Source: a virus
Length of the DNA: 49,992 nt
IMG/VR virus record: IMGVR_UViG_3300025011_000064
Coordinates: 1-49,992 of that record
Reading direction: 5' to 3' (one strand)
In this document: positions 1 through 49,992 of the stretch, one piece after another
How positions within the stretch are numbered: position 1 is the stretch's first letter
Layout: each line of letters starts with the position of its first letter
Translations under genes and position numbers: made by a program
Notes under the pieces: model-generated
Database searches by the model: none
Seen by the model: only the letters and a program-made list of their open reading frames with translations
What the model was told of the DNA's origin: nothing

Positions 1-1244
1 CCGTCAGAGTCAGCGCAGTCCGTCGTTGCTCCATAGATAACATTATAGTTGTCGGTGCTATTTGTGCTGCGGATTCCTGTTGCGAAGCCGGATATGATAT
101 TATTTGCCTGAACTCCACCAGTAACCGACACGGGTTCATGGATTCCATAGCCGGTCGAAGCGGCGCTTCCAGCATAAACAAAGGTGTTATTGTGCTGGTT
201 CACGTCATTTGCAAATACATATGAGCCCCGGTCGGCTGCTTGAGTAGCAACAACATAGTTGTCATAAAATTCACTGCCGGTAGACGAAGCTGAGAAAAAT
301 ACCGGGCCAACTGTCCCACTTCCCCTAATCTTCAATCGGCGGGCAACTGTCCCGGGAGATTGATTGTAAAAGCAATTCCCCACTGAAGACACACCCTCAT
401 AACAATTCAGTGTCACGTCCTCTATAACTCCAGACCCAGCGGTGGAAGCGGCGTTAAATGCCTGCTTCTCATCATGCTGCGGGTGGGTGATAGTGCCTCC
501 ATGCACCAACCATCCTGTGCCAGTGGTTAACTGGATCTCGTCGCCTGTAACCAATGATCCTTGCCCAGAACCGGAAAAATTCGGCCTGATAATTTGTAGA
601 TTGTCTCCGCCACCATAAAAGCCATCGGTGGATATATTATCTATGGTGACATCTATAAGTTGTAGCCCGCCGTTACTAACTGCACGAATCCCGTTTGCAA
701 AGTTCGCCGCTGCCTCATCAATCAAGATATCATGAACATATACCCTCCGAATGATGTTATCATAATCAGTGCTTACTGTTCCACCTGATGAAGGACACGC
801 AATGCCTATACGATTCGCTTGTGTTGAAACATCGTCGTAGACAATTTCAAGGTCCTGGATGGTCCAATGGTACTTGTTGCCTGAATTTATTACACGGTCC
901 TGACTGTTTCCAAATCCGTCAAGAATTGCTTTAGATGTCGAGACAGCCCCACCGGTCGAATAACTGCCGATTACCAGTCTATCAGTGGTAGAATTTCCAC
1001 CTGTCGAGATATTCACATATGCAGCAGATACAGTTTTTCCTGAGCTGAACAAGTACCAATTCGTCCCGGAGTACGTTACCCCGGCAGTTGTATTGAAAGC
1101 ACCTGCTCCGCCAGTAGTTTCGGCACACGCGAACGACAGCCCATTCCCATGGTTAGCACAATCCGGGTCTGTATAGTAGACAGCAGCCCCAGCCGCAGAA
1201 GGAAGAAGCAGCAGGGCCGTGATGGTGAGGAGTTTCTGTCTCAT
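1..1244 (-). CDS. Signal-peptide right-handed beta-helix protein, C-terminus cut by window edge
   Basis: The open frame runs off the left edge; 414 residues are visible. Residues 1-20 are a Sec signal peptide: charged MRQK, then a Leu/Ala-rich core ending SAAGA. The mature part opens with VYYTDPDCANHGNG, as in pectate-lyase-like or DUF1565-type beta-helix proteins, and continues with Asn/Gly/Ser-rich short strands typical of polysaccharide-degrading spikes. The ATG at 1244 overlaps the stop of the upstream gene (ATGA), so it is translationally coupled. Likely role, inferred: binding or depolymerising surface sugar. A Sec signal on a phage spike is odd because virion proteins normally assemble in the cytoplasm; a secreted enzyme is possible. 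If the molecule is circular, it would continue in frame into the gene at the right edge. Confidence 0.75.
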   Translation of the reverse strand, partial: MRQKLLTITALLLLPSAAGAAVYYTDPDCANHGNGLSFACAETTGGAGAFNTTAGVTYSGTNWYLFSSGKTVSAAYVNISTGGNSTTDRLVIGSYSTGGAVSTSKAILDGFGNSQDRVINSGNKYHWTIQDLEIVYDDVSTQANRIGIACPSSGGTVSTDYDNIIRRVYVHDILIDEAAANFANGIRAVSNGGLQLIDVTIDNISTDGFYGGGDNLQIIRPNFSGSGQGSLVTGDEIQLTTGTGWLVHGGTITHPQHDEKQAFNAASTAGSGVIEDVTLNCYEGVSSVGNCFYNQSPGTVARRLKIRGSGTVGPVFFSASSTGSEFYDNYVVATQAADRGSYVFANDVNQHNNTFVYAGSAASTGYGIHEPVSVTGGVQANNIISGFATGIRSTNSTDNYNVIYGATTDCADSD

Positions 1245-1552
1245 TCTGATACCCTCGTCAGCGTAAATTCAAATCTGCGTCGCTCTGCTTTATACAATAC
1301 CCCTTTTGCCGTTCCGTCTGGCAAAATCTCCACGATATCGACAATATCTTTGAAAAATTCATCGTTGCGCGGGTGGTTATAATCAAGAATGTATCTGTTA
1401 CCAGTAGCAGGGGCTGTGTAAAACCAAGCCCCCTCAATCCCCACGGCCCGGTTGAATCCCTCCCCGCCTTGGATGACTTTGTGATCATTCAGCGGATTGA
1501 AGATTGCCGCCCAGCCTAAGCATGTCACTAACCATTCTCCGTCCAGACTCAT
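1241..1552 (-). CDS. Unknown small protein between endolysin and spike
   Basis: A 103-residue protein of unrecognised family. The sequence alternates short beta-like stretches (GVLYKAERRRFEFTL near the end) with Gly/Asp turns, suggesting a small beta-rich domain. It overlaps the end of the endolysin gene by 4 nt and the start of the beta-helix gene by 4 nt, so it sits in one tight operon. Its ATG lies 7 nt after a copy of the 25-bp palindrome, whose AGGA end serves as ribosome binding site. No catalytic motif is visible; a chaperone or structural accessory role is only a guess from position. Confidence 0.7.
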   Translation of the reverse strand: MSLDGEWLVTCLGWAAIFNPLNDHKVIQGGEGFNRAVGIEGAWFYTAPATGNRYILDYNHPRNDEFFKDIVDIVEILPDGTAKGVLYKAERRRFEFTLTRVSE

Positions 1553-2157
1553 AATGATTCCTGTGTTGATTTAATTAACGAAGCATCATAACATCCTTCA
1601 GACAGCACCCCTATCAAGTCCGCCACTCGACCAACCCACCCGGAGAAGTATTCAGCATGGGTCTTACGCAAGGAGTAATAGTAGAAGAGTCTCACATTTA
1701 GGAGACTGAGGGTGAGTAGGTCTTGAGGGCAGTACTTGAGGGCTTCAATGGTAAGAGTGCCTATCACCCCATCTATCTCTATATAGTTACGTGGAAGATA
1801 TCCATTGATGGAGGCCTGGAGCCACTTACCAGCCCGCGCCTTTCCACAATTCACGGCTGAGTCAAAGTACAAGAGGTCAATAGGGCAGGAGAGGTTAGGT
1901 GAGAAGTAATCCCTGAAGTAGATTTCAGTGGCATCTTCCAGTGTGAGACTTACTATATCAAGCTCAGGATAAGCCTTCTGACTAATCCCCCACTTAGTCA
2001 CCCCACCTGAGTCCCTATTCACCCTCCCCATGCCCTCATGGGCCAGCACAAACTGGAGACATTGGGTGAAGCGGAGGGGATAAGAGGATGGGAAATCTGC
2101 CCCAGATAAATCACTGTGTGTGATAGGTGGAGTCATGATCCTACTATTTTTGTCCAT
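1549..2157 (-). CDS. Endolysin, GH108-type muramidase with peptidoglycan-binding C-terminus
   Basis: The 202-residue protein has an N-terminal GH108 (N-acetylmuramidase) domain, about residues 28-130. The catalytic Glu is probably E41 in AHEGMGRVNRDSGGVTKWGIS, followed by the family pattern of an Asp-x-GG turn, then T-x-x-GI. The C-terminal part (DGVIGTLTIEAL, about 115-130 onward) matches the PG_binding_3 region usually paired with GH108. It cuts the glycan backbone of peptidoglycan at lysis. No signal peptide is seen, so it needs the holin-like proteins. The start at 2157 is chosen for the perfect AGGAGG seven bases upstream; longer in-frame starts exist up to 2181. It overlaps the upstream membrane-protein gene. 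Confidence 0.88.
   Translation of the reverse strand: MDKNSRIMTPPITHSDLSGADFPSSYPLRFTQCLQFVLAHEGMGRVNRDSGGVTKWGISQKAYPELDIVSLTLEDATEIYFRDYFSPNLSCPIDLLYFDSAVNCGKARAGKWLQASINGYLPRNYIEIDGVIGTLTIEALKYCPQDLLTLSLLNVRLFYYYSLRKTHAEYFSGWVGRVADLIGVLSEGCYDASLIKSTQESL
1560..1584. repeat. 25-bp start-associated palindrome, copy 1
   Basis: Family pattern: left arm GCTAYRTTRATT, one central A/T, right arm AATYAAYRTAGC. Read on the minus strand this copy ends CACAGGA, 7 nt before the ATG at 1552, and forms its Shine-Dalgarno. It lies inside the 3' part of the endolysin gene. Confidence 0.8.
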
Positions 2158-2426
2158 AGGTAACCTCCTATCAACGCACAAAGAGCAGCGACGAAGCCTA
2201 AGATGCCTCTTTTAATTAACACCCTTACTTCTCTGCCAAATCTTAAGTCACTTTGGAACTCTGCTACTGACTCTGGATCATCTACCTTCACTCCACATAT
2301 GAAGAGGATCTCTTTTACGGCTGCCCTCGCAGCCCGTTCAGGCTCTCTGCACCCTGGGTTGGGGCAGCTAGAGTGATCATCCTCTCTGCGGAAAGGCCCA
2401 GTGTATCCTGGGTCACTCCCACTCAT
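2133..2426 (-). CDS. Small membrane-anchored phage protein, holin-like
   Basis: This 97-residue protein has a basic/acidic N-terminus, a helical centre (AARAAVKEILFICGVKV, then DPESVAEFQSDLRFGREVR) and one C-terminal membrane segment, about residues 75-94. This layout is common next to phage endolysins, and such proteins are annotated as holins or accessory membrane proteins. The gene is coupled to the small terminase by ATGA and overlaps the endolysin start. Inference: part of the lysis system. A second holin candidate lies at 46279-46518, so which one forms the lethal hole is open. Confidence 0.72.
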   Translation of the reverse strand: MSGSDPGYTGPFRREDDHSSCPNPGCREPERAARAAVKEILFICGVKVDDPESVAEFQSDLRFGREVRVLIKRGILGFVAALCALIGGYLWTKIVGS

Positions 2427-16642: not shown

Positions 16643-16790
16643 GAGAGGCCGGCGGGCCGCCACACTTGAGGGGCCATTGCACGCCTCTCCCGGCGATTTC
16701 ATTATCAAGGGTATCAAGGGCGAATTTTACCCTTGTAAACCTGACATCTTTTATATCACCTACGATTTAGTGGAGATCACAAATGACTAA
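16638..16790 (+). pseudogene. KPDIF-type phage domain lacking a start codon
   Basis: An open frame from 16638 to a stop at 16788-16790 reads [17 protein letters not shown] and then [17 protein letters not shown]. This is the highly conserved C-terminal part of a common phage protein family (PGDWIIKG...[11 protein letters not shown]). There is no ATG and no clear ribosome site; a TTG at 16677 is the only candidate. The family normally has 40-80 more residues in front. A +1 shift at the stop of the 16430 gene would fuse the two frames. Either the gene is broken, or it is expressed by frameshifting. It overlaps the start of the next gene by 8 bases. Confidence 0.65.
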
Positions 16791-18147
16791 CACCACCACT
16801 CCTCTCATCCCCCGTAACCAGATTGAACTGGGCTCTCGCTTCCGAAAGGACTACGGGGATATAGACCAGCTCAGCTATTCCATAAATAAGAATGGCCTCA
16901 TCTCACCAGTCGCCATAGGGGTAGCCTCCAAAGTAAACATCCCCCGCGAAACCGATCTCCCTTACATCCTGCTCGCTGGTGGTAGGCGCATGATGGCTAT
17001 GGATAAACTCGGGTGGACCTCCATCCCTGTCCGCATCTATGACCAGCCCATCTCTGAACTCGACCTCCGAGCTATCGAGCTAGCTGAAAACCTCGACCGT
17101 AAAGAGATGTCTTACGAAGAGGATCTAGCCCTCAAGCTCGAAATCCATAACCTCCAACAATCTATCCATGGTGAGAAAATCTCCCGTACTCCTGACTCCC
17201 CCGGGTGGTCCCAAGCAGACACTGCTCGCCTCCTACATATCTCCCCTGCTGCCCTCTCCAAAGATATGGAGCTCGCTAAGGCTATCAAAAAGTTCCCTGA
17301 AATGCAACTTGACCAATGCAAGAACAAAGCCGAAGCTATGAAGCGTCTCAAAGACGTCGGCAAGATTCTTGTAAACAGTCACAACGCTGCCACATACTCC
17401 ACTCAGATGGCGGATAAATCTAAGACCTTCTCCAAACTCTCATCTGCCTTCATCATCGGGGATTGCTTAGATATCATGGCCAAGATCCCATCTAACTCAC
17501 TCAACATAATTGAGATCGACCCTCCTTATGCAATAGACCTGGCTAGTGTAAAGAAGGACAACTCCTGTATAGGTTACAACGAAATCGAGTCCAAGAACTA
17601 CATCTCCTTTATGACTCAGGTCTTCACCGAATCCTACCGCATTCTCAAGGAGGGCAGCTGGCTCCTTTGCTGGTTCGCTCAAGACCCCTGGTTCCAACCT
17701 ATCGCCTCAGCTATCCAGGAAGTAGGCTTCAAGATGAATCTAATCCCCGCAGTATGGACAAAGGCTCAGGGCCAGACAGCTCAACCCGAGACCTATCTCG
17801 GAAACTCTTATGAAGCCATGTTCTACGCCCGTAAGGGCAAGGCCCGTCTCAACAAACCTGGCCGAAGCAACGTATTCCCCTTCCCTACTATTCCCCATAC
17901 TCAAAAGTACCACCCTACTCAACGCCCGATTGACCTGATGAGTGAAATCCTCACCACTTTCTGCCCACCTGGCTCCAATGGCTTCGTCCCCTTCGCTGGC
18001 TCAGGCGTAACTATCCTCGCCGGCCACTTGAACAGTATCAACTTAATCGGCACAGACCTCACTGCCATCTACAAAGATGGCTATATCTTACAACTTAAAG
18101 AGGTACTCGGATATGAGACTCCAGCAGAACTCCCCTCAGAACTATGA
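16783..18147 (+). CDS. ParB-like domain fused to DNA methyltransferase
   Basis: A 454-residue protein. Residues about 8-115 are a ParB/Srx N-terminal domain, with GGRRMMAM near 66 and [12 protein letters not shown] near 105. A ParB-type helix-turn-helix follows ([19 protein letters not shown]). The C-terminal half is an N6-adenine or N4-cytosine methyltransferase with DPPY at 246-249 placed before FAGSG near 404, so class beta order, and a TQRP motif near 385. Known phage ParB-methylase fusions are orphan enzymes thought to protect DNA. There is no restriction partner here. The DNA-binding half makes it a candidate reader or modifier of dispersed sites. Confidence 0.9.
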
Positions 18148-40722: not shown

Positions 40723-42270
40723 TCATATAATCAGCCCCATCTCCATAGCACCCATCTCACTCTCACATTCCAACGTATCGTACTCGTCAGATGGGGGCTC
40801 TTCTTCCATCTCATCAGAAGGGTCGAAATAGATAGCATGCTTATCCATTATGAAAGTGATATAAGCTAACGCATCCATCAAGTCCCAGAGTTTAGACTTG
40901 GGGAAGCTAAGGAGTTGACCCTCTAATTTACCACAATTACTTTTGTTATGATAGATATAACCCAGCCTATAATATGGCCCCAGGGTAGCTATTCTTTCTG
41001 CTTTCCCCTTCTCATTAACTCCTCTCTTAGCACTCAACTCAACCAAGATAGGGTGGATGTTACGTTGGCGGCACTCATTCTCAACTGGCTGCTTTATAAA
41101 CTCACTCAACCCCGTGGTCTCATACCCAAGCATAAAGGAGTTGTAAAATTTCAACTGTCGAAACATCTCATCATAGAGTTCATCTGGATAGACTTTTCCA
41201 CTGAAGAGCTCTCTCACAAATACTTTCCTACTCGTGCGATCTACAGCCACTGTAATAATGGCAGTATCGGCAGATTTCAACTTAACTGTCTTAGCAGGAT
41301 CTACTATAGTAATATGATGCATACCATAGGTGCGACACTCTTCTTTATTCGGAAGTACTATCTTATCCAACTGGTCATCAAAATACTTAAAGTATTCCTG
41401 CTTGAAGACTGCATCTTCTTTGGCTATAGGAATATTCATCCTCTCCATATAGAACTCATCAAGAGTCCCCTTCCTACGATGCTCCTCAACCTCTGCCATC
41501 ACCTCCTCATCGGTCATGTAGTTAGTATCAAGGGACTTATAGTTTTCATCACAGATGGAGAGTTGTACAGTCTTCCACTCGGGAGACTCCATTAAGTCGG
41601 CTAAGATAGAATCCTCATGTTTGATGGTATCTATATAAATAAAGGTAGTCTTCTTCGCACTATACCTCCCCTCAGTCTTCATGAGATCGCCATCAAACCA
41701 GGTACGGAGTTTCTCACGATTCTCCTTACTACGGATTTCATCTTTATTCTCTAAGTCATCTATGATGACTAGATCTGGGCGATAGTTAGCCCAGTTAAGT
41801 CCACGTACCTGCTGCCCGGCGCCACGTGGGAGGATGAATGTGGAACCATAAGCAGTCCAGGCACTCTTGGAGAAGGTCTCATCCATGGACTTATCTTCAC
41901 CAATAACATCTTTGATGTTTCCAAAGAGGGCCTTTACCTGGGGATTGGACAGTAAGTCACGCTTAATATTCTCAGTTTGCATCTCCGCAGATGTAGCACT
42001 ATTACTTAGGTATACAATAAAGTTAGCTAACCTAAACAAGATAGCTCTCATTACTACTGTCCTAGCAATAGAGGTCTTCCCAATACCCCGAGGTGCAGCA
42101 ATAGCTATCTTATGATACCCAGAGTTGATTAGGTCAAAGATGGCCTGATGAAGAGATGAGAAGTCTGCATAAAAGATCTCAGGGAATAGTGTGCCGCAAC
42201 ACACCTTGATGTCAATCACGCAGAGACTTAGAATCTCTTCTAACTCTTGATCCTTAGCTAAATCTGTCAT
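40723..42270 (-). CDS. terL: Terminase large subunit
   Basis: A 515-residue protein. The ATPase half has Walker A APRGIGKTS (59-67) and Walker B DLVIIDDLE (166-174). The nuclease half begins HITIVDPAKTVKLKSADTAI with catalytic Asp near 324, then YETTG near 376 and a C-terminal KSKLWDLMDALAY with the last acidic residue. It pumps DNA into the prohead and cuts the concatemer. ATG at 42270 is coupled by ATGA to the spike gene; the longer frame would overlap that gene. The small subunit is far away at 2423-2968. Confidence 0.93.
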   Translation of the reverse strand: MTDLAKDQELEEILSLCVIDIKVCCGTLFPEIFYADFSSLHQAIFDLINSGYHKIAIAAPRGIGKTSIARTVVMRAILFRLANFIVYLSNSATSAEMQTENIKRDLLSNPQVKALFGNIKDVIGEDKSMDETFSKSAWTAYGSTFILPRGAGQQVRGLNWANYRPDLVIIDDLENKDEIRSKENREKLRTWFDGDLMKTEGRYSAKKTTFIYIDTIKHEDSILADLMESPEWKTVQLSICDENYKSLDTNYMTDEEVMAEVEEHRRKGTLDEFYMERMNIPIAKEDAVFKQEYFKYFDDQLDKIVLPNKEECRTYGMHHITIVDPAKTVKLKSADTAIITVAVDRTSRKVFVRELFSGKVYPDELYDEMFRQLKFYNSFMLGYETTGLSEFIKQPVENECRQRNIHPILVELSAKRGVNEKGKAERIATLGPYYRLGYIYHNKSNCGKLEGQLLSFPKSKLWDLMDALAYITFIMDKHAIYFDPSDEMEEEPPSDEYDTLECESEMGAMEMGLII

Positions 42271-44051
42271 GGAATTACAGTCCCTAACCCAGCCCACCCG
42301 GTGTTGCTAGTACCTGTACGTTTTATGTAGATGGCGTACTCACCACTACCCAAAGGATTGTTTGTATTTACGCAGATTGATCCAGGTCTTGCTGATTTCC
42401 CCGCCTCAGGAGTTCCGGCATAGGAGGTCAGTATAGGATTATTAGCACCGCCTATCATCATATCTTTGTATAGTGCCCAAAGGTCAGATGATATATCATA
42501 TGTCAACTTATTATCAGCGGCTGTCTCATCCCTAAAACGCAATACATCCTCAAACATACTAATAGAAATGGCGTCTGCTCCAGTATCCATTACAATTTTA
42601 GGCAGGACACTTTTAATATCTGTGCGTAATACAGTCACGTTGTTTAAATTCTTTATGTCCCCACTAATTGAAAGGTAGGACGTAGAGGTATCTTCAACAT
42701 ACTGATCAGTGGTGAGGACGGAAGATAGCCACTCACCACCACTTATCTTTGTATTCTCCTGAGCATTCAGAATAAGCCTACCGCCACTTGCATAACCCCT
42801 GATCTGATTCTGCTCGTTATGGCAATAAATAAATTCGTGATGAGAACTGGCCGCATTCGAAGGTAAGTCAATTCCGAGTTCCCAGGCTAGAGAAAAACTA
42901 CAGAATGCAAATATATTGTGAGCTCCATCGTCGACCCGTACATTGGTTCCTTGGTAACTGAGATCACACGATATAAACTTGTTATTATTTACATGCCCTG
43001 TTCCTGTTGAAACAATATCAACCCCATGGTAGGAATTAGTTCCTGCTCTATCTCCTAGAAATATACAGTCGTTGAAGGTGTTATACCAAGTGCCTGACGC
43101 CCCAGCATCCATTAATAACTGAGCAGACCCGCCAATCATGAGAAGGTCATAAAAAGACCCCCTCTTTATATCCCTCATGTAAAAAAGAGGTCCAGCATAA
43201 TCAAGGCGCTGGAATGTAAGATCTTGCATGCGAGGATTATACCCTATAGACTCTGCTATTAGATCACCGTCAAGAGTAAAGGCTGCATCAGTACTTGTTA
43301 CCCCAGATAGCAATCCTGAAGAATCAGCTCTATCAAGAGTTGCATCTGTTATTCCCCTATATTTTCCATTAGGATTAAAGTTTACAGTTGTCTCGCAATA
43401 ATACTTGCCAGTAAACGCAACCTCAACGCTCTGCCCAGCAGACACTATGGCGGCATTAACGGCTGTAGCCATGGGGGTTGTTCCTGGCGTAGTATTTTCT
43501 GCCCATATATCTGGATCAATTTCTGAAACTCCAGAGTTACTTAAATCAATAGTAACATTTTCCCCTGCCCATGTTAGTCTAGGTGTGTGCTTATAATGCA
43601 ATGGAGCGAATGTTTCTACCCCACCCCCTGCAACCCCCTGTACCACACATCCTTGCTCGGGCTCGAAAGTTATGGTTTTAGGTGGGGATACAGTAGTACC
43701 ATCAGGTATAGTAATAGTCCCTGTACATTTAAGAGTGGTAGGGGTAGTACCTATATCAGTAAGTGCAGTAGCCAAAGATGCCCAATCAGAGACATTTACT
43801 AATTGAGTAGATAACTTATTTTCAATAGTGGTATCTACCGCATTATTTCCACCTTGATTATAGATTACTCCTTCGGCAGAAGGGGTTATCTTACCGGCTG
43901 CAGTAATATCACCCCCAGTGATGCTGCCCGTAGTATTGAGATTCTTATCAGTGTTAGTCCAATCTGTGCCCACATTTAGTGCAGAGACATAAGAGGGGAG
44001 AAGAAGTAACCCAAGAATTCCTGCATTGATTAAATTAACGTAGCGTTTCAT
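42267..44051 (-). CDS. Tail-spike-like beta-helix protein with signal-like N-terminus
   Basis: A 594-residue protein. The first 24 residues (MKRYVNLINAGILGLLLLPS, then YVSA) look exactly like a Sec signal peptide. The body has right-handed beta-helix character: EGVIYNQGGNNAVDTTIENK, WYNTFNDCIFLGD, HVNNNKFISCDLSYQGTNVR and FCSFSLAWELGI. The C-terminal RPGSICVNTNNPLGSGEYAI motif with TSNTGWAGLGTVIP is common at the ends of phage spikes. It probably binds or cuts surface polysaccharide. The 5' codons contain a palindrome copy in frame. Overlaps the terminase start. Confidence 0.78.
   Translation of the reverse strand: MKRYVNLINAGILGLLLLPSYVSALNVGTDWTNTDKNLNTTGSITGGDITAAGKITPSAEGVIYNQGGNNAVDTTIENKLSTQLVNVSDWASLATALTDIGTTPTTLKCTGTITIPDGTTVSPPKTITFEPEQGCVVQGVAGGGVETFAPLHYKHTPRLTWAGENVTIDLSNSGVSEIDPDIWAENTTPGTTPMATAVNAAIVSAGQSVEVAFTGKYYCETTVNFNPNGKYRGITDATLDRADSSGLLSGVTSTDAAFTLDGDLIAESIGYNPRMQDLTFQRLDYAGPLFYMRDIKRGSFYDLLMIGGSAQLLMDAGASGTWYNTFNDCIFLGDRAGTNSYHGVDIVSTGTGHVNNNKFISCDLSYQGTNVRVDDGAHNIFAFCSFSLAWELGIDLPSNAASSHHEFIYCHNEQNQIRGYASGGRLILNAQENTKISGGEWLSSVLTTDQYVEDTSTSYLSISGDIKNLNNVTVLRTDIKSVLPKIVMDTGADAISISMFEDVLRFRDETAADNKLTYDISSDLWALYKDMMIGGANNPILTSYAGTPEAGKSARPGSICVNTNNPLGSGEYAIYIKRTGTSNTGWAGLGTVIP
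44020..44044. repeat. 25-bp palindrome, copy 17 (inside coding sequence)
   Basis: Lies inside codons 3-11 of the spike gene, encoding RYVNLINAG at the start of its signal-like peptide. Both arms match. Confidence 0.82.
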
Positions 44052-44061
44052 TCTCTACTCC

Positions 44062-44499
44062 TTATGCCCAAGTTCCATAAATAGCATGAATCATCCACTG
44101 ACCCACAGCTACACAACGGAGAATAGCATTAGCTGCTTTAGCCTCGGCGGCAGTGGTGTTGGCAATACTTGTGCCCGCTCCACCATCAGCTATAGTGTCA
44201 GAACCTCCAGCAGTTATGGTAAGATTTCCTATTCCCAATTTATGAATTTCAAGAAAGGTTCCCACATCAGCTGCTACAGTCTCACGCAGTGTAAGCGTGA
44301 CTGCGGAGGCCGAGTTCACAGTATACACCTGGTTGAATGTACTAATAGTCGCCGACACATTAGCCGCACTCACTGTGGGCATATACTCCCCGGCTATAGC
44401 AGATTCGTTAGTATTAGCTAGTGTAGCTATGGCCCTAATCAGGGCTGGCCAAGTGCTTACAAAGCTATCATCTGTTGGTTGGGTAGCATCTACTGACAT
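44062..44499 (-). CDS. Small beta-rich tail/fibre-associated protein
   Basis: A 145-residue Ala/Thr-rich protein with AGEYMPTVSAANVSATISTF, VTLTLRETVAADVGTFLEIH and a beta-type end (NAILRCVAVGQWMIHAIYGTW). The last part recalls the C-terminal domain found in many phage fibres and appendage proteins. GGAG upstream. No signal peptide, unlike its neighbours. Probably a virion appendage. Confidence 0.7.
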   Translation of the reverse strand: MSVDATQPTDDSFVSTWPALIRAIATLANTNESAIAGEYMPTVSAANVSATISTFNQVYTVNSASAVTLTLRETVAADVGTFLEIHKLGIGNLTITAGGSDTIADGGAGTSIANTTAAEAKAANAILRCVAVGQWMIHAIYGTWA

Positions 44500-44514
44500 A
44501 GTAATATCTCCATA

Positions 44515-44862
44515 TTAAGGTACGTAAGTAATTCCAGTTAAAAGGCCTGCTGTAAAGGTAAGAGATGCTACATCCCCACTTCCCCCACCTCCAAAGGTGC
44601 AAGTGCCATCTAGGACAGTAGTCCCTGCCAACTGGGCAGAGGTTACATTGTGGGGATTACTTGTGTCATTAAGATGGCTAGTTAAATCTCCATCTGGAGC
44701 ATAAGCAGCATCTGCCTCTCCTTTAGTAATTAAATGTTCAGGAAGCACAGCAGCAGCATTTACTCTGATAGGCCCGTCACTTTCAATAGCATTAACCGTG
44801 GTGGCATCATCGTAACTGTGAACATATCTCATGCTTCCCAAGTGTATATGCTTAATAGCCAT
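44515..44862 (-). CDS. Short tail-fibre-type protein
   Basis: A 115-residue protein with SHLNDTSNPHNVTSAQL near residues 62-78, the SHxxxxxPHxVTxxQ motif of phage fibre shaft repeats, and a Gly-rich end. Start at 44862 lies nine bases after a palindrome copy, with AGGA as ribosome site. May be a linker or collar fibre. Confidence 0.72.
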   Translation of the reverse strand: MAIKHIHLGSMRYVHSYDDATTVNAIESDGPIRVNAAAVLPEHLITKGEADAAYAPDGDLTSHLNDTSNPHNVTSAQLAGTTVLDGTCTFGGGGSGDVASLTFTAGLLTGITYVP

Positions 44863-44871
44863 TTTAATTTT

Positions 44872-44896
44872 CCTGAGTTAATTTAATCAACATAGC
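44872..44896. repeat. 25-bp palindrome, copy 18
   Basis: Good copy; minus-strand end ACTCAGGA precedes the ATG at 44862 by 9 nt. It is the last copy before the repeat-free spike region. Confidence 0.87.
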
Positions 44897-44898
44897 AA

Positions 44899-45399
44899 TC
44901 AATTTGCCAGTCCGAGTCTATCTATCTCAAGGTAGAATGTAGCACTGGCTACACCGTTATCAGTAAGGGCTACTATCCAAGGATCACCTGACCATGCTGT
45001 AGGTGTGGATTGATCTACACTACCATCAGTCGGCCCTTCAAAGAATGTCCACCTGGTGGAAGTATCATCTACCAAGTCCAGCCCCTTAACAGTTGCGGCG
45101 ATAAGTACCTTACCATTTGTACTGGTGATTGATAGGTCACTATCTGTGGTAGGGGCTACACTCCCTGGACGAGCTAGTAGAGTGTAGCTTAGCCCCTCAA
45201 GAGATTTCATAATAGAATCACTCAGTGTAACTGAAAGAGTTCCATCTGTGTGAGCTGTACATAGGAGGACAATCCTAGCAGCGTTAAAGCTCCCACCTCC
45301 ATACTCAGTTGTTACTTTGGTACAGGTTCCTACATCAGCCCCACTAACCATTGAGGGCAGGGCTAAGAATGCGAGGATGAGTAATTTGATATATCTCAT
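44899..45399 (-). CDS. Small secreted-type protein with Sec signal peptide
   Basis: A 166-residue protein. Residues 1-20, MRYIKLLILAFLALPSMVSG, form a clear signal peptide; the mature part starts ADVGTCTKV and is beta-rich (ARIVLLCTAHTDGTLSVTLS, then VIAA-like strands and ATFYLEIDRLGLAN). The start at 45399 has AAGGAG upstream; the frame extends further back, but that part belongs to the truncated holin copy. Likely exported or a structural appendage; function unknown. Confidence 0.75.
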   Translation of the reverse strand: MRYIKLLILAFLALPSMVSGADVGTCTKVTTEYGGGSFNAARIVLLCTAHTDGTLSVTLSDSIMKSLEGLSYTLLARPGSVAPTTDSDLSITSTNGKVLIAATVKGLDLVDDTSTRWTFFEGPTDGSVDQSTPTAWSGDPWIVALTDNGVASATFYLEIDRLGLAN

Positions 45400-45400
45400 T

Positions 45401-45604
45401 TTAAATCTCCTTTTCACTCCCATTGAGTTTCGATCTTTGACTTTTGTCATTCTTAATTGACCTAAGTTTGCTCCTTATCACTGGCGCCATTACACCGACT
45501 GAAACAAGGGCGGCCATGATCAGTTCTATCCCGAGCTGCTTGTGCTCCGCGGTAAGTTCAATCCCGCGACTTGCGACGGCCAGGACACGGCCCTGTATGT
45601 CTCT
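45401..45604 (-). pseudogene. Truncated second copy of the holin gene
   Basis: The frame reads GRVLAVASRGIELTAEHKQL and continues GIELIMAALVSVGVMAPVIR, closely matching the intact holin-like protein at 46279-46518 (ELTDEHRQLGIELIMAALVS). Relative to that copy it lacks the start codon and first residues and has an exact 30-nt in-frame deletion that removes the first membrane helix core (between direct ACGGCC repeats). An internal ATG could still give a one-helix protein, for example an antagonist, but no good ribosome site is seen. Confidence 0.72.
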
Positions 45605-45702
45605 TTACCACGGTACGCGCCTGCCGGCAAGGTATCGTCACGCATGGCCACCCGGCAATTCATGCAGTGCTGACAGGCTTCCGCTTCAATCTTGACGGTC
45701 AT
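45526..45702 (-). CDS. Small CxxCxxC protein coupled to the PP-loop ATPase
   Basis: A 58-residue protein, MTVKIEAEACQHCMNCRVAM and onward, with a CxxCxxC cluster at residues 10-16. GGGAGG precedes the ATG, which overlaps the ATPase stop (ATGA). From about residue 38 the frame reads out of phase through the truncated holin copy, so the C-terminus may be an artefact of recombination. The Cys cluster could bind zinc or Fe-S and act with the ATPase as sulfur or metal partner; this is inference. Confidence 0.6.
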   Translation of the reverse strand: MTVKIEAEACQHCMNCRVAMRDDTLPAGAYRGKETYRAVSWPSQVAGLNLPRSTSSSG

Positions 45703-46295
45703 TTTACGCCTCCCATCGCCAGAAGGCAACGCGTACTCGTATCCCCCGGGATGTTGGATTCCCATGAAAATAATTTCTTGATCGTTTGCAGTACCTCTGG
45801 GAGGTTCTGTTTATGCTCTACCCAATAGTCAATTTTTCTGACTTTAGGGGGATGCATCGTGCCTAGACTCAACTTATTTCTGGTTGCAAACTCCTTCGCT
45901 TCCTGAAGGTGCCGACCATATTCACCGTCGTCTTTCCCGTCTGAGCCCGTTATAACAACCCCTCCTCTTTTGTGTGCCAGTGCATACCCAAATGCATAAT
46001 AATCCGACTGGAAGCAAGTACACATGCCGCAGACGTCTGTTTTTCTGGCCTCGTGGTCGGAGATATAACTATCGTACCAATCCGCACGTTTAAAAAATGT
46101 TACGTGTTCACACCCAGTAACTCTCACCACGTTCTCAATGTTTCTACGGGCCTGCGGGCTGAGGAATCCATTATCGTATGTGTATGCTAAAAATGTTTTC
46201 CCTGCCAAAAACAACGCTGCTGCAACTCCGCACGAATCTTTTCCGCCAGATAGGAATAAAACCGGCATAACCAGCCGCTCAATTTTTATGGTCAT
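45699..46295 (-). CDS. PP-loop (N-type ATP pyrophosphatase) enzyme
   Basis: A 198-residue protein with the PP-loop SGGKDSCG near residues 14-21, followed by AYTYDNGFLSPQARRNIENV, a DVCGMCTCF cysteine group and GSDGKDDGEYGRH. PP-loop enzymes adenylate a carbonyl or tRNA base and release PPi (QueC, TtcA, PAPS reductase, sugar amidotransferases). The YDNGFLS...NI pattern is closest in feel to N-acetyl sugar amidotransferases (WbpG/PseA), which would suit surface-sugar modification, but tRNA or DNA modification cannot be excluded. ATG at 46295 overlaps the holin-like gene. Lies in a cassette between two holin copies. Confidence 0.78.
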   Translation of the reverse strand: MTIKIERLVMPVLFLSGGKDSCGVAAALFLAGKTFLAYTYDNGFLSPQARRNIENVVRVTGCEHVTFFKRADWYDSYISDHEARKTDVCGMCTCFQSDYYAFGYALAHKRGGVVITGSDGKDDGEYGRHLQEAKEFATRNKLSLGTMHPPKVRKIDYWVEHKQNLPEVLQTIKKLFSWESNIPGDTSTRCLLAMGGVK

Positions 46296-46518
46296 TGGTC
46301 TTTTTCTTTGCCCTCTTGAGCGACCGCAATTTGCTCCGAACAACTGGCACCATGGCACCAGCTGAAACAAGAGCGGCCATGATCAGTTCAATCCCAAGTT
46401 GCCTATGCTCATCGGTAAGCTCAATCCCACGACTTGCGAGGTAGGCCGCCACAACGGCCATTATTGCCACGGCCAGGACACGGCCTCTGCTTGCCGATTT
46501 TGCTATTGAGTCTGTCAT
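46279..46518 (-). CDS. Holin-like two-helix membrane protein
   Basis: A 79-residue protein with two membrane segments (residues about 12-30, VLAVAIMAVVAAYLASRG; and about 42-60, LGIELIMAALVSAGAMVPVV) and a strongly basic C-terminus (RSLKRAKKKTNDHK). This is the layout of class II holins. ATGA coupling to the upstream beta-helix gene. It would permeabilise the inner membrane for the endolysin at 1549-2157. A damaged second copy lies at 45401-45604. Confidence 0.75.
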   Translation of the reverse strand: MTDSIAKSASRGRVLAVAIMAVVAAYLASRGIELTDEHRQLGIELIMAALVSAGAMVPVVRSKLRSLKRAKKKTNDHKN

Positions 46519-47909
46519 CTGTGATTACCCATCCCTGAGAATGAACCGCCTCCGTGGTTTTGCGAGAATAAAAATCCACCAATGTTTGTTCCGTTAATAC
46601 CCAATCCGCGTCCTGGGTATGATTCGGACGCAATTGCTGTGTAACTTATTTCATCGTAAGTTATATCAAAAGATACAGCAACAATATCATTGGCATAATA
46701 ACCTAACGATGAAATATCTACTCCGCTGTCATTTGGTGGTGGGCCAATAGGTAAGATTGTTTTATCGGATGCATCTATCCACAAGTTGTAATTAAAAATA
46801 TCAGGAAAATTCTTAATATCATCAGAATTTGCATTATCAGACAACTCAAAAGCTAACCCATCAATTACATTATTATAAAAATCTCCATGAACTGACCATT
46901 CCTGATTGTCGCTATTTAAATACATAAAAAATGCCCCCCATACTGGTATACTCAGCGCGACGTTATTATAAATACTTATTTCGCCAGAATTTGTTAAATC
47001 ATTTGTAAAATAAAACGGATTATCTGTGGAGTAGAATAAATTTTCATATATCGAACCATTAAATTCATCACCCTGCACAGCATATGATATACCACCTACG
47101 CAGTTTATAAATTTATTATATCTAACCGTCGCATTATTTATTGCCCCTTTATAATATATACTACCTCCCTGATATAAGTTTCTGTTGTCTATAAATAGAT
47201 TGTATTCGATCAATATAGTATTTAGACTGAACAGCCTTATGCATGTGTTTCTGTTGTATGTTGGGAGAGCAATTGAATCACGGAATGTATTATGTGAAAT
47301 TACAGTATTTGTTGTTGTGTCATTAACTGGTACAGATAGCATTGAAGGATTATAATCCCCACCATTTTCAATACCAGTTAAAAAATCAACACCAGATACT
47401 TGTATAAAATCACCTGATACAGTAGCGCCGCCATCTATTTGTATACCGTAGGAACTACCTACCAGTGTACCGATCAATTTTACGTAATCTGCCTGTAATG
47501 TTAATAACCAACCGGAGTCGTCACCACCATCGGTGAATACCGCTATTTCACCAGGGTAATTTGTTACAACTATAGGATTTTCAACGGTTCCTGACACTGC
47601 CAAGTTATTATTACTATATGCAAAGCTTGCTTGACCAGCATCAGCATAAGAACCGCCTCGGAGATAAATCAAACTTCCCGGCGCAACAACTGCTGAAGCG
47701 CCAGCGAGATTTAGCCACGGATTACCGATAGTTCCATCCCCTGTTGAGTTATCGCCAGATGGTGAACAGTAGTAAGTATTTAATGGATTGGCTAAAAAAT
47801 CGGAGACGAATGGAGGAACACCGACCGGCGGAAATAATTCAGATACGGCATAAGAATTTCCAGGTGTAAAGAAAAATAATAATAGAAATACAAACAATAT
47901 ATTAATCAT
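46515..47909 (-). CDS. Signal-peptide right-handed beta-helix protein, AT-rich
   Basis: A 464-residue protein. Residues 1-20 (MINILFVFLLLFFFTPGNSY) are a signal peptide. NTYYCSPSGDNSTGDGTIGN, then PWLNLAGASAVVAPGSLIYL are the classic opening of pectate-lyase/DUF1565 beta-helix enzymes; Asn-rich rungs follow (NTVISHNTFRDSIALP). The gene is visibly more AT-rich than its neighbours and uses many A/T-ending codons, a sign of recent acquisition. ATGA coupling on both sides. Probable polysaccharide binding or depolymerase. Confidence 0.78.
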   Translation of the reverse strand: MINILFVFLLLFFFTPGNSYAVSELFPPVGVPPFVSDFLANPLNTYYCSPSGDNSTGDGTIGNPWLNLAGASAVVAPGSLIYLRGGSYADAGQASFAYSNNNLAVSGTVENPIVVTNYPGEIAVFTDGGDDSGWLLTLQADYVKLIGTLVGSSYGIQIDGGATVSGDFIQVSGVDFLTGIENGGDYNPSMLSVPVNDTTTNTVISHNTFRDSIALPTYNRNTCIRLFSLNTILIEYNLFIDNRNLYQGGSIYYKGAINNATVRYNKFINCVGGISYAVQGDEFNGSIYENLFYSTDNPFYFTNDLTNSGEISIYNNVALSIPVWGAFFMYLNSDNQEWSVHGDFYNNVIDGLAFELSDNANSDDIKNFPDIFNYNLWIDASDKTILPIGPPPNDSGVDISSLGYYANDIVAVSFDITYDEISYTAIASESYPGRGLGINGTNIGGFLFSQNHGGGSFSGMGNHR

Positions 47910-48742
47910 CTGTCACTCGCAAAGCCATTTACAAGAATTTCATTTATTTCGCTTTCAGTCAACAAGTCAGACATTGTAAAACATTCGTCTACTGACCCAG
48001 CCAGCAAGTCCGCATTAAAAGCACGACGGCCCGACACTAGTGCTGCTGTTCCACGGAAAACAGCCAGTGTAGCGTCCGCTGTTTGATATGCTGAGACTGC
48101 GGCGTCCCCATCCTCACCTACATATAGATTAACTCCGACATTGCCGTCAAATGTCGCCACAACCAGAGTCCATATTTCTGCTGTAGCTCCAACCGTGGCA
48201 GGCAAATTCACTACATTTCCCCATCCAACCTCTGACCACTCTACTGCAAAATCATCAGCCGATTGATCATAAAATATCCTATACGACATTTGCCCCCCGG
48301 CTAAATCCCATTTCCCTATTATATGCATATCAGCTGCTGGAGCAGCATCTAGCCTAACCCAACAACCGATGGAAAATTCATTCTGCGCTCCTGTTGTTGA
48401 TTTTCCTGGGAATGTACTCGGAGCTAGTGATGCGTCAGTGCAAGAAAGATATTCGTTTGCATCTATTGCTGCATCAATGTTTACGCTTGAGTTACCCTGG
48501 ATATAGTTGGTGGCATCCTGAGCAACATTACCATTCCAGCTAAGGTCATTATTATTATCTGAGCCGTCCAAAGACGAAGTGGCCGCATCCTCAAAAAACC
48601 ACCATGAGATGACGTTTGAATTTATAGTAAAATCGGTCCCTGCTAATGCAATTTTCTGTGAAGCCCCCTCAATATACCCATTCGTGCCAGCAAAACAGAT
48701 AACAGGGATAAACCAGAACAAAAAAGTGAGTTTTTTAATCAT
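47906..48742 (-). CDS. LamG/concanavalin-like protein with signal peptide
   Basis: A 278-residue protein. Residues 1-18 (MIKKLTFLFWFIPVICFA) are a signal peptide. The rest is a LamG/ConA-like jelly roll: NVISWWFFEDAATSSLDGSD, FSIGCWVRLDAAPAADMHII, WTLVVATFDGNVGVNLYVGE and the last-strand SVDECFTMSDLLTESEINEI. Such domains bind carbohydrate. ATGA link downstream, 8-base overlap with the upstream fibre gene. Probably an accessory sugar-binding appendage or a secreted lectin. Confidence 0.82.
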   Translation of the reverse strand: MIKKLTFLFWFIPVICFAGTNGYIEGASQKIALAGTDFTINSNVISWWFFEDAATSSLDGSDNNNDLSWNGNVAQDATNYIQGNSSVNIDAAIDANEYLSCTDASLAPSTFPGKSTTGAQNEFSIGCWVRLDAAPAADMHIIGKWDLAGGQMSYRIFYDQSADDFAVEWSEVGWGNVVNLPATVGATAEIWTLVVATFDGNVGVNLYVGEDGDAAVSAYQTADATLAVFRGTAALVSGRRAFNADLLAGSVDECFTMSDLLTESEINEILVNGFASDR

Positions 48743-49992
48743 TACTCAATGCCCTCGAATACTTAAATTCCACTCCGGTCACGGTAAAATCTTGCGCGTA
48801 GGTGTCAGTGGTTGTCGCAAGCCGTATCACAGCGGCGGCGCACTCTTCACCGGCTGCAATACTTCCTGCCGGGGTGATCGCCGATGAATAAGCGGTGTCG
48901 AGGTTGTCATATTGCGCATAAGTGGCATCTGCCGTTAAACTTGTGGTCTGCGCCGTGCCAACTGCCAAAGTACTTGCCTCACTGTTTGCATAACATGCCA
49001 GAGCCACGGAAAAGGCAACTACTTCAGTATTAGCCGGGGCCGTTGCGCCAGATACCACACCAGTCACACGAGCTGTTACGGTGGTGCCGGTGAAGTCTGT
49101 CGGCACTCTCCAGATAAAGGTCACATCCTCATTTGCTGCGCCGTCAAATGCCCGTCCTACCTTCCGAGTTGTCCCGGTAATAGCCGCCGCAGCCGCTGGA
49201 GCTGTTGAGCCATCTTCTGCCCACTCTATCGGGAGCCAGTCGGCATCCTTGACGGTTATCTCATTGGTGTTCAGGTCAAGATTGCCTCCGAGCTGGGGCG
49301 TGGTATCTTCAACGACATTAAGCAGCGGGGTTATCCAGGTTCCGACAGAGGCAATCTTTGTGGTTCCGTCCCCCATGGTTTGGTTGCCAGGAACAGCGAA
49401 GGCCATCACTTGCCCGGCGGTAGGATCAGCCAATGGTGGAATGTGAATCCTGCTTGCAGAAACGTCGCCATAAATACCCCATCCAAGATAGTTTGTGCCG
49501 TTGTCGGTATCCTCCAGGAAATAAATATACTGTCCACCTGAAGCAGTGCCGGGGGCAGAGAACGAAGAGGCGATTACTGGCTTGTTGAAAGTGAAATCAG
49601 TATCACTAACCGTCATTGTCGGGTCTGTCCCGGCACCAGTATCAAATGTGTGGACCTGTGAACCTCCGGCGGCAGTGCCCCATGTCACACCGTCATAGGC
49701 GGTAAAGTCCACACCACCTCCCAGGGTTTCGGCGAACGTCTCTAATGCCTGGATAGCCGCTTTTACGGTTTGATTGTCCGTAATCGTTGATCCGGTGAAG
49801 GCCCCGAGGTTAACCGCGCCTTCCGCCACACCTGAAAGAGTGATCAAATCGTCAACTGCAAGGCTGGCAGCAGTTGGAACAGCAACCCATGACCTGACCC
49901 CGGCATCTGTTGAGCTAAGGACAAATCCAGTTGTGGCTGGATTATCCAGGGATGGTTCATACACCCCCGCCCCGATAATGGCCTGGATCTCT
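48735..49992 (-). CDS. Tail-fibre-like protein, N-terminus cut by window edge
   Basis: The open frame enters from the right edge; 418 residues are visible. EIQAIIGAGVYEPSLDNPAT, GFVLSSTDAGVRSWVAV and AAIQALETFAETLGGG are typical fibre-shaft sequence; LLNVVEDTTPQLGGNLDLNT is a common fibre repeat; the C-terminus is a beta-sandwich (FIWRVPTDFTGTTVTARVTG, then FTVTGVEFKYSR). It overlaps the LamG gene start by eight bases. On a circular map it would be in frame with the beta-helix gene at 1-1244. Confidence 0.8.
   Translation of the reverse strand, partial: EIQAIIGAGVYEPSLDNPATTGFVLSSTDAGVRSWVAVPTAASLAVDDLITLSGVAEGAVNLGAFTGSTITDNQTVKAAIQALETFAETLGGGVDFTAYDGVTWGTAAGGSQVHTFDTGAGTDPTMTVSDTDFTFNKPVIASSFSAPGTASGGQYIYFLEDTDNGTNYLGWGIYGDVSASRIHIPPLADPTAGQVMAFAVPGNQTMGDGTTKIASVGTWITPLLNVVEDTTPQLGGNLDLNTNEITVKDADWLPIEWAEDGSTAPAAAAAITGTTRKVGRAFDGAANEDVTFIWRVPTDFTGTTVTARVTGVVSGATAPANTEVVAFSVALACYANSEASTLAVGTAQTTSLTADATYAQYDNLDTAYSSAITPAGSIAAGEECAAAVIRLATTTDTYAQDFTVTGVEFKYSRALSND

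Follow-up and report, generated by a model that had tools for sequence, protein, structure and literature searches.

The window analysed here is the whole of a single IMG/VR record, IMGVR_UViG_3300025011_000064, a podovirus-like genome (~50 kb) of 49,992 bases and 53 genes, in which TerL, portal, major head protein, DNA polymerase, primase and endolysin are recognized by PHROG matches. The closest isolate record is that of Desulfofustis phage LS06-2018-MD01, with a portal identity of 38.8%. The two ends of the record join in frame: the gene starting at 1244 leaves the window at position 1 and resumes at 49992-48735, so that the product at 1-1244, rightly credited with a signal peptide (SP) in the preliminary description, is only part of a longer protein of 833 aa. 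Because of this join, the record is most likely a complete genome, permuted or circular; the 27-mer spanning the junction was absent from the other IMG/VR contigs searched. Elsewhere in the window, a 454-aa protein (16783-18147) combines a ParB-like N-terminal part with a DNA methyltransferase part, according to PHROG matches.

The module under study runs, in coding order, from the endolysin through a 103-aa product, the SP-bearing 833-, 278- (LamG) and 464-aa proteins, a 79-aa holin-like protein, a protein with a PP-loop motif, the SP-bearing 166-aa protein, two products of 115 and 145 aa and the SP-bearing 594-aa protein, to TerL. Its features, with all SPs being predicted ones, are the following:

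1549..2181, minus strand: endolysin, upstream border of the module (PHROG 315, 2.6e-32)
1..1244, minus strand: 5' part of the 833-aa gene, SP (1185-1244) and beta-rich body (in-frame join; SP score 17.4)
48735..49992, minus strand: 3' part of the 833-aa gene, with a fibre-like region, DLITLSGVAEGAVNLGAFTGSTI, recognized by eye (in-frame join)
47906..48742, minus strand: 278-aa gene, SP (48689-48742) and Laminin_G_3 lectin-type domain (SP score 10.0; Pfam PF13385, 1.2e-11)
46515..47909, minus strand: 464-aa gene, SP (47847-47909) and beta-helix-like body (SP score 11.2; SP-less homologue of the N-terminal domain in MW202608)
46279..46518, minus strand: 79-aa holin-like gene with two hydrophobic segments, overlapping the 464-aa gene by ATGA
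45699..46295, minus strand: 198-aa gene, SGGKDS PP-loop motif, without Pfam match
44899..45399, minus strand: 166-aa gene, corrected start, SP (45340-45399) and beta-rich body (SP score 14.0 from M18; Shine-Dalgarno AAAGGAG)
44515..44862, minus strand: 115-aa SP-less fibre-type gene, IGS..YDD family, NPHNVT motif (weak PHROG tail-fibre matches)
44062..44499, minus strand: 145-aa SP-less gene, whose first ~45 residues match the head at the N-terminus of an SP-less tailspike from the relatives L037 and L052 (HMM E 7e-6)
42267..44051, minus strand: 594-aa spike gene, SP (43980-44051), conserved NVGTDWTNTDKNLNT head and variable body (SP score 12.0; alignments of relatives)
40723..42297, minus strand: TerL, large terminase subunit, on which the comparison is anchored (PHROG 38, 4.9e-64)

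A partial copy of the holin-like gene, without most of the part coding for the first hydrophobic segment, lies about 0.8 kb away from it, at 45430-45610. The PP-loop protein, which sits amid the SP genes, carries a motif of the PAPS-reductase/ATP-pyrophosphatase kind, and sulfotransferases occupy the same slot in relatives.

SPs were predicted by a home-made scorer rather than by SignalP, trained on a small set, 36 signal peptides known from E. coli. In 265 genes of six control phages, a small sample of phages in general, 95% of the scores lay below 8.8, and two exported controls, lambda Lom (18.2) and T5 Llp (12.0), ranked high. The five top scores among the 53 window genes, 17.4, 10.0, 11.2, 14.0 and 12.0, belong to the 833-, 278-, 464-, 166- and 594-aa proteins, precisely those whose N-termini had been described as convincing signal peptides. 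The predicted peptides, each given with the residues following the cleavage site, are MRQKLLTITALLLLPSAAGA before AVYY (gene starting at 1244), MIKKLTFLFWFIPVICFA before GTNG (48742), MINILFVFLLLFFFTPGNSYA before VSEL (47909), MRYIKLLILAFLALPSMVSG before ADVG (45399) and MKRYVNLINAGILGLLLLPSYVSA before LNVG (44051). For the gene described as 44899-45450, of 183 aa, the start had to be moved: no SP is predicted from 45450, while one is found from the internal ATG at 45399, the most likely start. By this scorer, the window proteins display the features of Sec export and signal peptidase I cleavage, namely a positive n-region, a hydrophobic core and small residues at -3/-1; no lipobox was found in them, and they are large. 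All five SP genes fall among the 11 genes spanning the endolysin to the spike preceding TerL (hypergeometric 1.6e-4). The DNA stretches encoding the five signals are mutually unrelated, which rules out a single duplicated signal cassette, save for one marginal pair, in the 833- and 278-aa genes, similar above the level of 300 simple shuffles.

The bodies following these signals had been described as beta-helix, LamG or beta-rich. The LamG domain was confirmed in the 278-aa protein; the beta-helix label of the genes at 46515 and 42267 found no Pfam counterpart, its basis being motifs, a weak homologue and low-confidence models. A fold search was abandoned, as AlphaFold models were too poor (pLDDT 41 for the 594-aa spike, 36 for the 464-aa protein), and PDB sequence searches returned no credible match. 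Isolate-phage matches were found neither for the 594-, 278- and 166-aa proteins nor for several SP-bearing relatives. The term "receptor-binding", earlier applied to the module, relies within the window on position, the LamG domain and a shared architecture; it is better supported for those relatives whose proteins match PHROG tail-spike and tail-fibre families.

These relatives, denoted here by L numbers, were gathered by a TerL search of IMG/VR, yielding 54, then 80 loci of 329 relatives; near-duplicates were removed before counting, and gene starts were picked by rule (Shine-Dalgarno or overlap), which may err in places. Long genes situated in the 8 kb that precede TerL, or between it and the portal gene, were compared with those from the portal onward: 48 out of 191 were scored as SP-bearing in the former slot, versus 4 out of 215 in the latter (Fisher 2e-13). 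What had been noticed as a feature of one genome is thus the property of a phage clade. A few of the 48 calls look doubtful by eye; among the other four, three look like false positives and one, the only convincing call, is a tailspike (L033). In L033 18531 the SP is followed by ADVKISDLTELNATPTHDDDFVVVDTSEATT, with a PHROG tail spike match (6.5e-10) and an endosialidase N-terminus. In the set of 48, chosen by a score rewarding both traits, 45 carry a net positive charge over residues 2-7, and the motif [AVST]x[AG] occurs near the end of the core 36 times against 26 expected. Predicted SPs are mostly of the signal-peptidase-I type, some being of the lipoprotein type. SP genes often come in runs of two to four, as in L053, where four consecutive ones lie between TerL and portal; three are found in L083, L075, L091 and L105, and two in L019 and L082. 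PHROG tail spike matches were obtained for SP-bearing genes of L053 (11808) and L078 (2223), a tail fibre match for L083 (7221), and the 115-aa fibre-type family recurs in L007, L020, L033, L035 and L053. As far as can be predicted from their genes, these are uncultivated podovirus-like phages in which spike-, fibre- and lectin-type products of TerL-adjacent genes begin with Sec SPs. In GTDB, the contigs holding TerL relatives come from MAGs assigned to Nanohaloarchaea, Nitrospirae, WOR-3 and Micrarchaeum, assignments which are probably binning errors; L074 and L077, which sit in Nanohaloarchaea and Micrarchaeum bins, are probable cases of phage-contig contamination.

Alignments of the relatives reveal a conserved N-terminal head followed by swapped C-terminal bodies, a hallmark of tailspikes and tail fibres. 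Seven diverse relatives of the 594-aa spike share the same layout, in which a diverged signal precedes an invariant NVG.DWTN head and unrelated bodies. In a second family the SP and APVAGDKVLIVDSQDSW are kept, everything downstream being swapped; divergence of the SP ahead of unchanging residues past the cleavage site is likewise seen in the APVAGDKVLIVDS family. Matching heads also exist without any signal. The SP-less L036 protein begins with Met at the mature position of the head found in L053, L078 and L035; the L134 protein does so with respect to the L083 head, in a neighbourhood of tail-tube and tape-measure genes (by eye); and an SP-less homologue in MW202608 begins, with MTTYYIAPS, at the mature position of the 464-aa window protein (tblastn residues 42-125, 36%). 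In L132 and L133, the head matching those of L134 and L083 stands behind a textbook lipoprotein signal, MRKLLVISLLLSLTAC, and the L020 spike has a possible lipobox, LTAC; among these SP-bearing proteins, a lipobox is confined to L132 and possibly L020 and L080. The ~45-residue head of the 145-aa window protein is fused to an SP-less tailspike in L037 (4493-6862; PHROG tail spike 3.8e-8) and L052, and is elsewhere a separate small gene beside an SP-bearing spike; the head of the Desulfofustis phage spike resembles it by eye, with no support from HMM comparison. Since matching heads occur in SP-bearing, SP-less and lipoprotein versions, predicted export is a trait gained, lost or switched in type by spike and fibre proteins that are in other respects ordinary for phages.

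The hydrophobic N-termini might also stay uncleaved and serve as anchors, which would hold spikes at the membrane while particles assemble or would insert into the particle, and a K/R-rich start with a hydrophobic core is indeed present in nearly all of them. We deem this very unlikely, because small polar residues at -3/-1, found in most, fit cleavable signals better, and because turnover to lipobox forms and total absence on matching heads fit export better than a needed anchor. Together with the clade-wide enrichment and the divergence of signals before conserved heads, this strongly supports genuine export signals and makes membrane anchoring the least likely of the three readings first offered for these genes. 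Of the other two, an action of secreted enzymes or lectins on the surface of the host is favoured over a coating of released virions.

It can also be argued that these proteins are passengers captured from host secreted proteins, their export signals being of no consequence to the phage, all the more so as the secreted proteins of bacteria often contain LamG and beta-helix domains. The heads are of phage type (APVAGDKVLIVDS, ISDLTEL, endosialidase N-terminus), the signals are kept while their sequence changes, and a search of GTDB species genomes yielded no NVGTDW motif, so that such an origin appears scarcely credible.

Phage spikes are normally assembled inside the cell and treated as cytoplasmic virion parts. 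The proteins described here share with known tailspikes and fibres (P22 gp9, K1-5 gp46/gp47, epsilon15 gp20, T7 gp17; PHROG 2234) the conserved N-terminal head and swapped beta-helix or lectin bodies, some relatives matching PHROG 2234 and the endosialidase N-terminus. RBP-type bodies also occupy the receptor-binding slot, as Laminin_G_3 beside TerL in the window and as PHROG tail spike or fibre matches in relatives. They differ by their signals: in the handful of isolate spikes and fibres tested no SP was found, the highest score being 8.6 and most below 0, whereas the proteins of the clade do carry SPs by the same scorer. Gene order is partly shared with Desulfofustis phage LS06-2018-MD01, which has a related portal and a long gene right after TerL in coding order, with one small gene between, and with Stenotrophomonas phage Jojan60, where a spike and a ConA-like lectin precede TerL; in both, however, the spike and lectin genes lack SPs.

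Export of these spike- and fibre-type proteins by the host Sec machinery before lysis is, from the predicted signals, very probable. Passage ahead of lysis is the only benefit an SP offers beyond what lysis itself gives. As to their role, the closest precedents among phages are T5 Llp and lambda Lom, Sec-exported proteins encoded, like the SP proteins of the window, beside RBP or tail genes. In T5 the RBP gene oad adjoins the gene of a lipoprotein inactivating the receptor FhuA (PMC9586334), so that Llp blocks the phage's own receptor, and comparison with oad/lpp places the predicted exported proteins of the window in an equivalent position. Llp, a 77-aa lipoprotein, and Lom, a 206-aa outer-membrane protein, are nevertheless devoid of the RBP-like bodies found here.

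Other relatives encode, in the slot preceding TerL, GT2 glycosyltransferases, sulfotransferases and an FkbM methyltransferase, which suggests that this zone is devoted to the host surface glycan and that the phage drives its change. Such glycosyltransferase 2, sulfotransferase and FkbM methyltransferase genes lie shortly before TerL at L037 601-1581, L040 2110-3250 and L042 6094-7700. A further family, of phage lipoproteins of ~255 aa, is encoded near fibre genes (L083 1327-2091, L099 1429-2208, L095 7600-8352, L096 3188-3937); its members feature a GGCS/VGCS lipobox, a Pro/Thr-rich middle and a C-terminal GGVYLHAPYG.SS...FYYN, the one member tested having no Pfam match, and might be exclusion or spanin-like factors.

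Our preferred reading, to which we assign a little less than an even chance, is that Sec-exported RBP-type proteins act on the receptor glycan and confer superinfection exclusion. The Sec machinery of the infected cell would ship the SP-bearing spike, fibre and lectin proteins across the membrane ahead of lysis; after reaching the periplasm or the outer membrane, these would bind, mask or trim the glycan used as receptor, a step we infer with moderate confidence. With the receptor blocked or destroyed, superinfection would be prevented and the progeny would not be caught on the remains of the dying cell or on the cell itself, the whole amounting to a receptor-destroying or -blocking set built from RBP-type domains. 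A site in the envelope is indicated by the retention of export when the peptide turns into a lipoprotein signal (L132; LTAC in L020), and the lipoprotein forms, the glycan-enzyme slot and the T5 precedent together favour envelope-located binders or trimmers of the receptor. Some points speak against receptor blocking: spikes in the periplasm would need access to the glycans before or after these reach the outer surface, and up to four exported proteins, as in some relatives, exceed what simple blocking needs.

The same proteins could instead be the virion's own RBPs, passing through Sec, folding and trimerising in the periplasm and joining fibre-less particles at lysis. This is rather unlikely, yet it agrees with the virion-spike architecture and the tail-spike family matches, and no large SP-less RBP was recognized in the window, so that the exported proteins may have to fill that role. 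The 145-aa protein, encoded beside the spike and matching the head of an SP-less spike, could then be a particle-side adaptor, and the P22 tailspike can attach to particles in vitro. Lipoprotein versions (L132, possibly L020), on the other hand, would be tethered to the membrane, and long SP-less beta-type genes, though without family match, adjoin the exported set in relatives (962 aa in L083, 432 aa in L105). Cysteine content is alike in SP-bearing and SP-less slot proteins (p 0.78), which leaves no signature of periplasmic folding; disulfide-driven folding in that compartment is accordingly unsupported. That a clade of tailed phages exports its RBPs via Sec and finishes its virions only once lysis has occurred, outside the cytoplasm, is a doubtful proposition; if true, it would break the rule of spikes built and attached in the cytoplasm.

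A role in lysis or release, with exported enzymes or lectins loosening capsule, exopolysaccharide or outer envelope late in infection, is suggested by the 833-, 278- and 464-aa genes, which lie downstream of the endolysin and share a few bases at their ends (ATGA or similar) with one another and with the holin-like gene. A single SP-bearing protein of Xanthomonas phage PBR31, gp40, resembles tail-associated hydrolases and has been proposed to aid lysis (PMC10975493); it is an SGNH esterase encoded beside spanins, and the passage describing it mentions no spike head or multi-gene set. In the window proteins, however, Pfam and PHROG disclosed no catalytic family, proteins of the lectin or fibre-head type are not evident candidates for lysis enzymes, and lysis would free cytoplasmic enzymes anyway. 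We regard this role as improbable.

Outside phages, exported proteins of similar build are already described in bacteria. The MAT fibres of Bdellovibrio (PMC10769870) are, by their description, alike in having an SP, a conserved beta-rich head (~130 aa) and swapped phage-fibre-like tips, but are encoded by bacterial genes and used by a predator. Pantoea WceF (PMC7949094) is an exported glycan hydrolase of tailspike fold; it differs in its Tat signal and in being a bacterial gene within an exopolysaccharide cluster. A search of the literature available without subscription turned up no description of Sec signals on a phage tailspike, or of a phage clade bearing them on a spike and fibre set; the sole phage parallel found is one gene, that of the PBR31 gp40 esterase.

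The receptor-blocking reading and the alternative of virion RBPs differ in what they entail. Repeated export signals on spikes would mean either that RBP domains have given rise to a new class of factors for superinfection exclusion or receptor destruction, or that virions mature outside the cytoplasm. Annotation pipelines labelling such genes as "tail fibre" from the body alone should be used with caution, and the clade may offer a supply of glycan-binding or glycan-cutting domains ready for secretion.
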